This document shows, in pieces, positions 5,627-23,903 of a stretch of 64,000 bases of DNA; position 1 is the first letter of the stretch, and every line of letters begins with the position of its first letter. The stretch lies in assembly GCF_009759685.1 (NCBI RefSeq), contig NZ_CP046654.1:124001-188000 (forward strand), written 5' to 3'. A model generated the notes under the pieces. That model did no database searches, was not told where the DNA came from, and saw only the letters and a list, made by a program, of their open reading frames with translations. This DNA is from Acinetobacter baumannii (GTDB lineage Bacteria; Pseudomonadota; Gammaproteobacteria; Pseudomonadales; Moraxellaceae). The translations under genes were made by a program, and so were the position numbers.

Positions 5627-5663
5627 TTTGACAATGAATCGAATTGAATGTAATTTAAATATG

Positions 5664-5681
5664 CACCCGCAAAATCGGGTG
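5664..5681 (+). terminator. Small hairpin after the excisionase-like gene
   Basis: CACCCG (5664-5669) pairs with CGGGTG (5676-5681) across a 6-nt loop, followed by TTT. It is probably a weak terminator of the early operon. Confidence 0.45.
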
Positions 5682-5716
5682 TTTGGATTGGTCTCCAAAA
5701 GTTTCTCAAGGTCGAA

Positions 5717-5743
5717 AGACCGCATTTAGCGGTTTTATTTTGC
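5717..5743 (+). terminator. Intrinsic terminator upstream of the C4-like RNA
   Basis: ACCGC (5719-5723) pairs with GCGGT (5729-5733) and is followed by TTTATTTT. TATAAT at 5745-5750 comes next and could be the -10 box for the following RNA, although no good -35 is visible. Confidence 0.55.
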
Positions 5744-5772
5744 CTATAATTTTCTACACTCTGTGGAAAATG

Positions 5773-5880
5773 CCCTGTTATGGTGGGTTAGGCGGAAGTG
5801 CTTCGGCACGCTAGACCCTTGAGACTAGTAAGACCAATTCCGTTTAACCTGCCACCCTAATTGATTGGTCTCAATTTTGG
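5773..5880 (+). ncRNA. C4-type antisense RNA element upstream of the antirepressor
   Basis: The stretch begins CCCTGTTATGGTGGG and closes with GCCACCC, which I recognise from C4 antisense RNAs placed before phage antirepressor genes (P1/P7 family). Pairings seen: GGTGG 5782-5786 with CCACC 5852-5856; GTTA with TAAC; CGGAA 5793-5797 with TTCCG 5838-5842. GTGC-TTCG-GCAC at 5798-5809 forms a UUCG tetraloop hairpin. Two unpaired segments, TTGAGAC (5819-5825) and GACCAAT (5832-5838), are complementary to ATTGGTCTCAA at 5864-5874, 40 nt before the antirepressor ATG. This fits antisense repression of antirepressor synthesis. Confidence 0.72.
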
Positions 5881-21049: not shown

Positions 21050-22144
21050 ATGATGAAAAAGTCATTATTTTGTATGACAGCTGCCTTATTTGCTCTGCCA
21101 ACAGTCACTTCCGCCGCTTCCCCATATTTTAGTTTAAAAGATGGTGATGGTTTCAAACGTTTTTCAGTCTCAGCTGGTCCTTTATATGTCAAACCAACAG
21201 GAAAAGCCCAACCTGTTTTTGTGAATACTGCTGTGAAAAAAGGTGAACAAGCTCAGGTTGGCGATGTCTCTATTAAGACAGTCAAAGAGAGCATGTCTAA
21301 AGATATGGATCCCAACTTATCTACATTCTTTATAGATTTCTTAGATAAACTAGGAAAAGAAAAACTACCAGCAGAATTAAGTGGTAATGCGAATATTTAT
21401 GGATTAGATCAATGGGATAATCCGGGGACAGGTTTAGAAGCAGATGATGTTACAACACTAGGCATCATGACAAACTACTTCTTTACCGATAATGTTTCAT
21501 TAGAAATAAAGGCAGGTATTCCCCCAAAAGTCGACTTACAGGGTAAAGGTAAAATTTATGCTCCCCTTAAAGCCCAAGCTCATCCATCAATTGAGCTACC
21601 TTTAATTGGGGGTATTGGTTTACCATCTATTGATTTAGAAAAACAAATTTTTATCACTGACCTTGAAGGCCATGGAAGTGCGGCATCAGCTCGAGCTTGG
21701 ACACCAGCATTTGAATTTCAATATCATTTTGGCAAGACCGGTGTAAATAAATTCAGACCTTATATTGGACTAGGTGTGATGTATGCATATTTCAATGAAT
21801 TAGAAATAAATCCTGAAATCGAAAAAGATTTAGTAAATGCTGGTCATATGATTGTCAATATTAAAGATGGCAAAGCGGGAGCTGCTCTTGATCGTTTAAA
21901 AAGTTCTGGTGATCCAAAAGTAAATCTTGAGGCTTCCGATGCCATTGCACCTGTTGCGACTGCTGGTTTCACCTATGACTTTAATGACAAATGGTATGCT
22001 GTTGGCTCTGTGTCTTATGCTCACTTAAAAACGGACACAACTATTACAGTCAATGATGCCAAGTACGGTGAGTTAATTAATGCAAAAGCAGATATCGAAA
22101 TTAATCCAATATTAGGTTATGCCGGTATTGGTTACCGATTCTAA
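21050..22144 (+). CDS. OmpW-family outer membrane protein
   Basis: A 364-residue protein with a signal peptide (1-22, ending TSAAS). OmpW-like strands are visible: FSVSAGPLYVKP at the start, TTLGIMTNYFFTDNVSLEIKAGIPPK in the middle, FRPYIGLGVMYAYF, and the terminal LGYAGIGYRF with the C-terminal Phe needed for BamA recognition. It is much longer than classical OmpW (about 210), because two charged insertions lie in the extracellular loops. OmpW forms small hydrophobic-solute channels; the substrate here is unknown. Confidence 0.82.
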   Translation: MMKKSLFCMTAALFALPTVTSAASPYFSLKDGDGFKRFSVSAGPLYVKPTGKAQPVFVNTAVKKGEQAQVGDVSIKTVKESMSKDMDPNLSTFFIDFLDKLGKEKLPAELSGNANIYGLDQWDNPGTGLEADDVTTLGIMTNYFFTDNVSLEIKAGIPPKVDLQGKGKIYAPLKAQAHPSIELPLIGGIGLPSIDLEKQIFITDLEGHGSAASARAWTPAFEFQYHFGKTGVNKFRPYIGLGVMYAYFNELEINPEIEKDLVNAGHMIVNIKDGKAGAALDRLKSSGDPKVNLEASDAIAPVATAGFTYDFNDKWYAVGSVSYAHLKTDTTITVNDAKYGELINAKADIEINPILGYAGIGYRF

Positions 22145-22159
22145 ATCTCAAAAGCACAC

Positions 22160-22198
22160 AAGCTATAAAAGCTTTACTTAAGCTTTTATAGCTTTTTT
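22160..22198 (+). terminator. Strong terminator after the OmpW-family gene
   Basis: A perfect 15-bp stem (22160-22174 with 22180-22194) has a 5-nt loop and is followed by a T run. Confidence 0.9.
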
Positions 22199-22401
22199 AT
22201 TTATCCTGCCAAAATTGCTTCTTTTTAAACCAAAATGCCAAAAAAATGAGCATTTTTTAGAAACGTGTTTACTAAGCTCAACCTTCTTTATTTTTTATTA
22301 TCACCTCTTCTTTTAATTCCTTTTCTCTAATCATTTTATGTTAGACAACTAACCTAATAAAATTAAAAACTAAGATTTTCCTTTTAGTAAAAATTATCTT
22401 T

Positions 22402-22417
22402 TGGCACGCACTTTGCT
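22402..22417 (+). promoter_or_regulatory. Consensus sigma-54 promoter of narK
   Basis: TGGCAC-GCACT-TTGCT matches the RpoN -24/-12 consensus (TGGCAC-RNNNN-TTGCW) at every defined base. Counting from the -12 C at 22416, transcription should start near 22428, five bases before the first leader hairpin. Activation by NtrC under nitrogen limitation is inferred. Confidence 0.85.
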
Positions 22418-22432
22418 TTATTTATGACATGA

Positions 22433-22481
22433 TGAATCAATGGCGATTCAATGGATAAACCAAGACGGCCAAAGATGTCCG
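22433..22481 (+). promoter_or_regulatory. ANTAR-type two-hairpin RNA leader upstream of narK
   Basis: Hairpin 1 is TGAATC (22433-22438), loop AATGGC, GATTCA (22445-22450). Hairpin 2 is CGGCC (22466-22470), loop AAAGAT, GTCCG (22477-22481), with one mismatch. Both hexanucleotide loops have A at position 1 and G at position 4, the signature bound by ANTAR antiterminators such as NasR and NasT. No clear terminator follows, so the output mechanism is uncertain. Confidence 0.65.
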
Positions 22482-22556
22482 CTCTGATCGGTATGCAAAT
22501 AGACAATTCATTTTGTCGTGCAAATTAAAATTTCGTTCAGTTCAGGGGGACGGCGT

Positions 22557-23903
22557 ATGTCTTCAAATATTAATTTAGATGCAAAAAAAGCGACTGAAAT
22601 TAAATTATTCAGTTTTTCAACCCCAGCCATGCGTGCTTTCCACATGACTTGGCTTGCGTTCTTTGTCTGCTTCTTCGCATGGTTTGCTTGCGCTCCATTA
22701 ATGCCCGTTATTAAAGGTGAGTTCGACTTAACCAAAGATCAAATTGCCAATATTAATATTGCCGCCGTTGCAATTACAATTTTAGTGCGGCTTGCTGTCG
22801 GACCACTTTGTGATAAATATGGTCCGCGTATTACTTACACCACCCTTCTCTTACTTGGCAGTATTCCTGTATTTGGTGTTGCCGCTGCCAACAGCTATGA
22901 ATCTTTTCTTTTCTTCCGTTTACTCATCGGTGCAATTGGCGCAAGCTTTGTCATTACGCAATATCATACCAGTATCATGTTTGCACCAAATGTCGTAGGC
23001 ACAGCAAATGCAGCTGCTGCGGGTTGGGGTAATGCTGGCGGTGGTGCAACACAAGCTCTAATGCCTTTATTACTCGGTGCAATTGTAATGTTCGGTGTCG
23101 AGCAAACTATGGGTTGGCGCGTTGCATTAATCGTACCAGGCGTAATGATGGTAATTGTTGGGGTTCTTTACTGGAAACTTACCCAAGACTGTCCTCAAGG
23201 AAACTTTAAAGAAGTTCGTGCACAAGGTATTGAGGTGGGTAGTGGTAAAAAAGGTGGCATGGCAATCTTAATGCAAGCGGCTCGTAACTACCGTGTCTGG
23301 ATTTTATTCCTCGCTTATGGTGCTTGCTTTGGTATTGAAATTTTCATCCATAATGTTGCCGCAATGTACTATGTTGACCAATTCAAAATGGATTTAAAAA
23401 CAGCAGGGTTAACCGCAGGTATATTTGGACTTCTTGCCTTATTTGCACGTGCATTGGGCGGTATTATTTCCGATAAAGTCGCACTCAAAAAAGGTTTAGA
23501 CGGACGTACTAAAGTACTTGTACTGATGATTTTAGGCGAAGGTTTATTCTTAATACTCTTCTCTCAAATGAACGTCGTAGCTCTTGCAATTATTTCCATG
23601 ACAGTTTTTGCATTGTTTACCCATATGGCTTGCGGAGCAACATATGCACTGGTCCCTTTTATTGACCGAAATGCATTAGGCGGCGTCGCAGGCATTATTG
23701 GCGCAGGTGGAAATGTGGGCGCAGTAGCAGCTGGTTTCTTACTAAAAGGCGTACTTGATATTCAAACTTGTCTATTTATTTTAGGTGGACTGGTTATGGT
23801 TGCAGGCTGTAGTGTAATTTTGATTCGCTTCACAACCGAGCACAAAGAAAAAGAAAAAGTACTTTTTGAACAGGCTCTACTTGAACGCAATTCAGCAGCT
23901 TAA
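22557..23903 (+). CDS. narK: Nitrate/nitrite MFS transporter, NarK/NasA type
   Basis: The product has 448 residues from ATG 22557, chosen because AGGGGG lies 7 bp upstream; the in-frame GTG at 22518 would add 13 residues without a ribosome site. Twelve membrane spans are predicted. Nitrate-porter signatures are seen: FFAWFACAPLMPVI, RLAVGPLCDKYGPR, GWGNAGGGATQALMPL and GAGGNVGAVAAGF. A sigma-54 promoter and an ANTAR-like leader point to an assimilatory role. A terminator follows at 23911. Confidence 0.93.
   Translation: MSSNINLDAKKATEIKLFSFSTPAMRAFHMTWLAFFVCFFAWFACAPLMPVIKGEFDLTKDQIANINIAAVAITILVRLAVGPLCDKYGPRITYTTLLLLGSIPVFGVAAANSYESFLFFRLLIGAIGASFVITQYHTSIMFAPNVVGTANAAAAGWGNAGGGATQALMPLLLGAIVMFGVEQTMGWRVALIVPGVMMVIVGVLYWKLTQDCPQGNFKEVRAQGIEVGSGKKGGMAILMQAARNYRVWILFLAYGACFGIEIFIHNVAAMYYVDQFKMDLKTAGLTAGIFGLLALFARALGGIISDKVALKKGLDGRTKVLVLMILGEGLFLILFSQMNVVALAIISMTVFALFTHMACGATYALVPFIDRNALGGVAGIIGAGGNVGAVAAGFLLKGVLDIQTCLFILGGLVMVAGCSVILIRFTTEHKEKEKVLFEQALLERNSAA

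Follow-up and report, generated by a model that had tools for sequence, protein, structure and literature searches.

What switches on a nitrate transporter gene that stands apart from the nas operon, and what could two small hairpins in its leader contribute? Here we address this question for narK in the window, a stretch of 64,000 nucleotides from an Acinetobacter genome of 3.99 Mb. An earlier note on this DNA had proposed that narK combines a consensus RpoN promoter with an ANTAR-type RNA leader, in the layout of Klebsiella nasF and here on a single gene, and that it is under double control by nitrogen starvation and nitrate. The features on which the argument turns are the following.

22160-22194 (+): terminator-like hairpin of 15 pairs with a T tail, 3' of an OmpW-like gene
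22236-22252 (+): degenerate NtrC-like dyad TGCCAAAAAAATGAGCA, 7/10 matches (shuffle fraction 0.39, not significant alone)
22402-22417 (+): sigma-54 promoter TGGCAC-N5-TTGCT, TGGCACGCACTTTGCT, an exact pattern match with a counterpart at 79/80 Acinetobacter narK loci
22427-22428 (+): predicted transcription start, placed from the -24/-12 spacing
22434-22449 (+): hairpin P1, GAATC-AATGGC-GATTC, hexaloop AATGGC at 22439-22444
22466-22481 (+): hairpin P2, CGGCC-AAAGAT-GTCCG, hexaloop AAAGAT at 22471-22476, with an internal C.U mismatch
22482-22490 (+): conserved CTCTGATCG immediately 3' of P2, which can pair toward the ribosome binding site
22534-22540 (+): conserved CGTTCAG 5' of the Shine-Dalgarno sequence, a possible partner of CTGATCG
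22544-22550 (+): Shine-Dalgarno sequence AGGGGGA
22557-23903 (+): narK, NarK-family nitrate/nitrite MFS transporter of 448 aa (TIGR00886)

A sigma-54 promoter upstream of narK

The RpoN element is borne out: the GG and GC of the -24/-12 element lie twelve bases apart, and the exact pattern TGGCAC-N5-TTGCW occurs a single time in the window, at 22402-22417. Only this exact match is noteworthy, since allowing one mismatch yields 4 sites in the window against 3.46 expected; genome-wide, the exact pattern has 12 sites and the reversed-pattern control 2. A search of 22140-22700 for sigma-70-like promoters gave none. The sigma-54 site is separated by about 200 bp of AT-rich sequence from the hairpin at 22160-22194, which scores on both strands and would insulate the narK unit from the upstream gene, itself OmpW-like at 61.5 bits, far under the model cut-off of 287. 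The narK product matches TIGR00886 with an E-value of 1.4e-91 and 307.3 bits, slightly under the cut-off of 311.7.

Upstream of the promoter, the degenerate dyad of the window sits at the distance where many relatives carry TGCAC-N7-GTGCA, dyads of this kind lying mostly around -154 to -183 relative to the sigma-54 site, and the block around it is conserved in the window and its seven closest narK loci. An NtrC-like dyad passes a shuffle test at 0.05 in 44/82 promoters, so that NtrC activation is likely for the leader group as a whole; with its own dyad degenerate, the window's promoter is only a candidate.

Two conserved hairpins of the ANTAR type

The predicted transcript would open with the two hairpins that the earlier note had described, each a stem of at least three pairs closed by a hexaloop with the A1/G4 signature; in P2 of the window, 4 of the 5 innermost pairs can form around one internal mismatch. 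Their conservation was followed in the best 80 of 586 confirmed relatives from a narK protein search, all 80 of them Acinetobacter loci, some two per genome. The nearest named relatives among these are 96-98% identical in narK, and we take them to be members of the calcoaceticus-baumannii group. A sigma-54 site, TGGCAY-N5-NTGC, precedes narK in 79 of these 80 loci, with TTGCW at -12 in 63. Because the Rfam family RF03032 ('narK RNA') scored the window under its threshold and misses the leader of the nas operon, we built our own covariance model of P1 and P2 (R1) from 78 sequences, 67 from Acinetobacter and 11 RF03032 leaders. R1, which was trained on many of the narK loci later scored with it, matches 79 of the 80 shortly 5' of the start codon; the sole miss, a locus of A. 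boissieri (L078), is also without the sigma-54 promoter. Both loops read A, A and G at positions 1, 2 and 4 in 79/79 leaders, while positions 3 and 6 vary.

The P1 stem covaries. Changes on both sides are seen at 4 of its 5 pairs, and the count of 56 cells compares with 17.9 in shuffles, none of 500 reaching 56; the plain number of pairs changed on both sides (4) is reached by 145 of the 500. Sliding the partner columns by 1 to 3 destroys the pairing. P2, on the other hand, yields no covariation because it hardly varies. Its second pair (22469/22478 in the window) is never a standard pair in Acinetobacter: the 22 distinct P2 sequences all have a pyrimidine-pyrimidine mismatch there, 18 of them C.U and the other 4 U.C. 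In RF03032 leaders the same pair is A-U in 24/25 and U.G in one whose P2 is doubtful (L170), a comparison that is informative only in kind since the assignment rule required three standard pairs. Left to fold freely, P2 seldom forms (mean probability 0.06 in 104 Acinetobacter leaders). The possible pairing of CGTTCAG with CTGATCG is disrupted in a clade carrying CTGTTCG.

One NasT, two sites

The genome encodes a single ANTAR domain, in a 196-aa receiver-ANTAR protein, NasT, followed by a 336-aa NMT1-like protein, NasS, the pair being divergent from the nas operon. The ANTAR protein anticipated by the earlier note is therefore present, but as NasT, with its receiver domain, beside NasS; no NasR, in which a nitrate-sensing NIT domain is fused to ANTAR, was found. 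RpoN is encoded once. Sigma-54 activator domains number three strong and four weak, the strong ones standing after an NtrB-like kinase, after a PilS-like kinase and alone, so that an NtrB-NtrC-like pair is among them (names by sequence reading).

Scanned over the whole genome, R1 scores the narK leader at 58.2 bits, the leader of the distant nirB (nas) operon at 52.6 and the next site at 21.1. There are two strong dual-hairpin sites, with leaders of the same kind, and narK is not the single-gene case that had been supposed. As a search model in the same genome, RF03032 was rejected: its scores stay below threshold, it misses the operon leader and it scores the sigma-54 site of nasT. Alongside nirB and a NirD-NirB-like fusion, the operon encodes a molybdoprotein that matches formate dehydrogenase and assimilatory nitrate reductase best, with no match above the respective cut-off. 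The apparent fusion is a 540-aa protein (L002, 5628-7250, - strand) with a NirD match at its start followed by the reductase part of NirB, beside a full NirB. The nasT gene has an exact sigma-54 site of its own, TGGCACTAATCTTGCT (L002, 10468-10483, + strand); sigma-54 promoters 5' of ANTAR genes are reported in the available part of another study (PMC12316311).

Across the genus, an ANTAR gene is present in 100/119 genomes, with one match in 99 of the 100 and a weak second match in the remaining one. The P2 motif (at most one mismatch) occurs in 88 of these 100 genomes versus 1 of the 19 without ANTAR (Fisher p 1.6e-12); the match in that one genome (G101, L191) was rejected, as it is not a narK leader. 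For the 12 ANTAR-bearing genomes without the motif, nasT-flanking stretches were taken from 10, G031 and G097 being left out. A diverged dual hairpin lies beside nasT in eight of the ten (L192, L193, L194, L196-L200) and was not seen there in L195 and L201; in G097, the locus L093 carries a diverged leader. In part, this co-occurrence of leader and nasT mirrors that of the whole nitrate pathway.

With these sites, the sole ANTAR protein of Acinetobacter would gain two concrete RNA targets. Work in A. baumannii has dealt with one such protein, AvnR, and in the accessible portions of the AvnR literature no RNA target was found for it; from the count of about one ANTAR gene per Acinetobacter genome, we infer that AvnR is the NasT described here.

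A decayed narK copy at the head of the nas operon

Behind the operon leader, an 89-codon in-frame narK remnant is found in 8 of 10 genomes (G000, the source genome, and nine chosen as apparent close relatives), and the gene is intact in L187 and L190. In G000 the remnant (L002, 9821-10162, - strand) heads the nas operon and contains a perfect intrinsic terminator. All eight remnants share GCGAGCC...GGCTCGCTTTTTTT with a variable loop; in L189 a single A to G substitution leaves the position paired as G.U. Neither indels nor stops occur in the eight, and their pooled dN/dS is 0.72. A similar terminator stands at the equivalent position in L092, a further narK remnant. In the P1 loop of the operon leader, position 1 is G instead of A in all ten genomes, the source genome included, which counts against the recognition proposed below. 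Since the operon copy is such a remnant, the genomes that bear it may depend for nitrate uptake on the unlinked narK of the window.

RF03032 as an ANTAR target with its promoter

The Rfam family bears directly on what the leader is. In a 401-base search the window aligns with RF03032 over the full length of the model and scores 24.7 bits (E 0.011), missing the gathering score of 43.2, which no match in the genome passes. Its consensus opens with GGCaC-N5-UUGCU, a sigma-54 element; the one annotated helix corresponds to P1, with the loop AACGGC, and the unannotated 3' end, CGAC-AAAGAC-GUCG, to P2. The order of promoter, P1 and P2 before nitrate genes is thus that of the window. If this is right, the first part of the model would be promoter DNA lying outside the RNA.

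At an E-value of 0.001, RF03032 matches occur in 21/398 Pseudomonadota and 15/293 Pseudomonadales genomes. Ten listed Moraxellaceae genomes outside Acinetobacter gave no match, and at this threshold Acinetobacter gave none either. All 23 genomes with a match also have an ANTAR gene, compared with 15 of 26 without one (the 26 being those listed by the searches and not a random draw), and the ANTAR gene lies within 5 kb of the match in 19 of the 23. The genes behind 13 matches were located, and the seven that were scanned comprise two MFS transporters, three NMT1-like proteins, one molybdopterin reductase and one formate/nitrite transporter; one of the MFS transporters is NarK-like at 307.9 bits, slightly under the cut-off. 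From the parts of the model, the co-occurrence with ANTAR genes and the nitrate genes behind the matches, we conclude that RF03032 is an ANTAR target plus its promoter. Read in this way, RF03032 would be explained as a nitrate switch, part of whose RNA model is promoter DNA. Our literature search, which did not cover the original description of the motif, found no paper on RF03032 narK RNA. One paper reportedly describes the narK motif.

No strong terminator after P2 in Acinetobacter leaders

Despite this likeness, the two leader types differ in what follows P2. By rule, 25 of 36 RF03032 loci could be resolved into P1 and P2 and 11 could not; each of the 25 resolved leaders has a T-tailed hairpin (-25 to -42 kcal/mol) overlapping the 3' strand of the assigned P2, which is the textbook antiterminator layout. 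Among 104 Acinetobacter leaders, only 12 have any candidate of -8 kcal/mol or lower before or at the start region. Because the best of the 104 reaches -13.1 kcal/mol (L057), a strong stop after P2 is judged absent from these Acinetobacter leaders. In the window's own leader, no terminator candidate was found before the start region and no intrinsic terminator overlaps P2, so that the Klebsiella nasF/NasR antitermination layout envisaged in the earlier note is not supported in detail. The element it pointed out is nevertheless real and its class was correctly named, and its interpretation is partly supported: neither a genome devoid of ANTAR proteins nor unconserved loops, two of the refuting outcomes that it had named, was observed.

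The same difference recurs in characterised systems, each considered from the available part of its source. The target RNAs of EutV, NasR and AmiR likewise consist of two short hexaloop stems bearing A1 and G4 (PMC3369931), whereas the window's leader is without a strong terminator after P2. The Klebsiella nasF leader with NasR resembles the present system in that an ANTAR protein acts on a hexaloop leader for nitrate control of nitrate assimilation (PMC3369931); it differs in that the Acinetobacter system has a receiver-ANTAR NasT with NasS, no strong terminator after P2 and two unlinked targets. The Azotobacter nasAB and Pseudomonas aeruginosa nirBD leaders share NasS-NasT control of nitrate assimilation, as cited and briefly mentioned in PMC3795266 and PMC12316311, but by the titles of the cited papers they work through antitermination. 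The genus Acinetobacter seems to run the switch without the transcription stop used by its relatives, and it is the missing terminator and its possible replacement that are surprising.

Start-region masking in operon and orphan leaders

A replacement may be sought at the ribosome site; ANTAR RNA matches without terminators have been suggested to act on translation (PMC3369931, available part). In many operon narK leaders, AAATTTGTAAGACGGCC, made up of the spacer and the 5' strand of P2, is complementary to GGCNATGTCTTCAAATTT, which spans the start codon and first codons, and in many the Shine-Dalgarno sequence has a possible pairing partner in the 3' side of P2. The A. baylyi locus (L037) carries a leader of the operon type. 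We scored masking as the energy by which a leader part closes the start region, compared with dinucleotide shuffles of that part; the idea came from single folds, and the test was run on 24 leaders first and then on all 104. Of the 50 operon leaders (median z 2.36), a set that includes some remnants whose start codon was picked by rule, 37 mask more strongly than shuffles at the 0.05 level, as do 12 of 18 leaders too short to classify. Seven of 36 orphan-classed leaders pass (L006, L019, L073, L076, L077, L083, L085), of which L073, L076, L077, L083 and L085 may be misclassed as orphan. In the window's leader masking is not significant (z 0.48 in the 24-leader test and 0.2 in the 104-leader test), and in its seven closest relatives z ranges from 0.9 to 2.0.

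With P2 formed, the start region is cheaper to open: the mean cost in operon leaders is 7.8 instead of 13.8 kcal/mol, that in orphan leaders 6.7 instead of 9.6, and the cost in the window 7.5 instead of 10.8. These figures have no shuffle control, and any fixed hairpin would contribute somewhat to the fall. The fall is at least 1 kcal/mol in 49/50 operon, 17/18 unclassified and 32/36 orphan leaders. The Shine-Dalgarno sequence alone is on average not freed by P2, its mean unpaired probability over the 104 leaders being 0.29 with P2, 0.31 in free folds and 0.23 with P2 barred.

When the masking part was restricted to P2 and the bases just after it, none of 12 operon leaders passed for the Shine-Dalgarno sequence and three for the start codon; the corresponding counts are two and one for the window and its seven closest relatives, and none and seven for 22 other (non-group) orphan leaders. 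As P2 without the spacer masks little in the 12 operon leaders, it is the spacer that carries their masking signal. In a partner swap, native combinations in operon and unclassified leaders (n=68) average -12.0 vs -10.5 kcal/mol, at a median percentile of 0.21. In orphan leaders (n=30, a set that by choice omits six leaders classed as orphan in the masking test), native pairs are not favoured, at -8.4 vs -9.1 kcal/mol and a percentile of 0.68. Furthermore, L143-L145 lack narK, and their spacer AACAACGGCC is again complementary to the downstream GGUCAGUUGUU, although P1 is shortened there. All these leaders are mutually related, so that the masking counts are not independent. On these folding computations, predicted ribosome-site control has good support in operon leaders and weak support in the window's own leader.

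Proposed mechanism and alternatives

We propose the following sequence of events. The RpoN promoter of narK is probably activated by NtrC under nitrogen limitation, and the first ~55 nt of the transcript would fold into P1 and P2. Nitrate or nitrite would free NasT from NasS, whereupon NasT, as the sole ANTAR protein, would bind P1 and P2 and turn on narK as well as the unlinked nirB operon, the latter through its own copy of the leader. In Paracoccus, nitrate releases NasT from NasS and NasT binds the nasA leader (PMC3795266), and contact with a single hexaloop has been described in ANTAR recognition (PMC8934654), both according to the available parts of these sources. Control by nitrogen limitation together with nitrate, as the earlier note had predicted, is likely and is the best reading because the sigma-54 site, the conserved hairpins, RpoN, an NtrBC-like pair, one NasT and two sites come together; judged from sequence, we consider it probable that RpoN/NtrC and NasT act through the P1/P2 leader, a confidence that excludes the output step.

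The output is the less certain step; in Acinetobacter it is probably ribosome access to the start region and not antitermination. Tentatively, and with less than even confidence, we suggest that the NasT switch may have been rewired from transcription to translation: with the P2-overlapping terminator of Pseudomonas-type leaders absent, the P1-P2 spacer and P2 would have become a decoy on the Shine-Dalgarno sequence, the start codon and the first codons until NasT holds P1 and P2. The complementarity rebuilt in L143-L145 belongs to this picture, and translation of the remnant could gate the nirB operon. If the output did move from a terminator to the ribosome site, one RNA-protein recognition module would have retained its loops and gained a different expression platform. 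Actinobacterial ANTAR RNAs lying over ribosome binding sites are similarly proposed to act on translation; there, by the available text, the two hairpins themselves lie over the site and binding is repressive (PMC8164766), whereas in Acinetobacter operon leaders P2 would make the site accessible, so that binding would be activating. In A. baumannii A118 in the blood of burn patients, nirB, nirD, nasA and a nitrate/nitrite transporter are reported, in the part of the source available, to be co-induced (PMC12425997); this was seen at the RNA level, an observation that control of transcription would explain no less well than control of translation.

Among the alternatives, NasT might act on mRNA stability or Rho-dependent termination and not on ribosome access, which we regard as somewhat unlikely. 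Orphan leaders, which keep both hairpins without a strong terminator and mostly without significant masking, would be accommodated by such an action; the masking of operon leaders and the seven non-group orphans that pass for the start codon with P2 alone argue against it.

Ordinary antitermination of the NasT/NasR type, with a stop that is weak or lies inside the narK coding region and is prevented by NasT, appears unlikely. NasR acts in this way on nasF, and the same has been proposed for NasT (PMC3369931, PMC3795266, available parts), in an abstract also for Bradyrhizobium. The best terminator-like hairpin (-6 kcal/mol or lower) indeed lies 174-214 nt after the start of P2, in the early coding region, in 90/104 leaders, and the decayed operon copies of narK hold strong conserved terminators. 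Against these stand the weakness of the T-tailed hairpins before the start codon relative to RF03032 and the origin of the intragenic hairpin in intact narK, which was rejected as a terminator: only 16 of 81 genes beat a synonymous-codon control at 0.05, the window's narK standing at 0.69, and the hairpin is largely due to the protein sequence.

That the hairpins are chance or functionless relics is highly improbable. In favour of this reading, the window's leader folds with an ordinary energy (z 0.17), a measure set aside as uninformative by itself; genus-wide conservation, covariation and co-occurrence with an ANTAR gene strongly disfavour this reading.

Elsewhere in the window, an Rfam isrK match adjoins a C4 antisense RNA at 5663-5859, which may mark a phage or satellite remnant.
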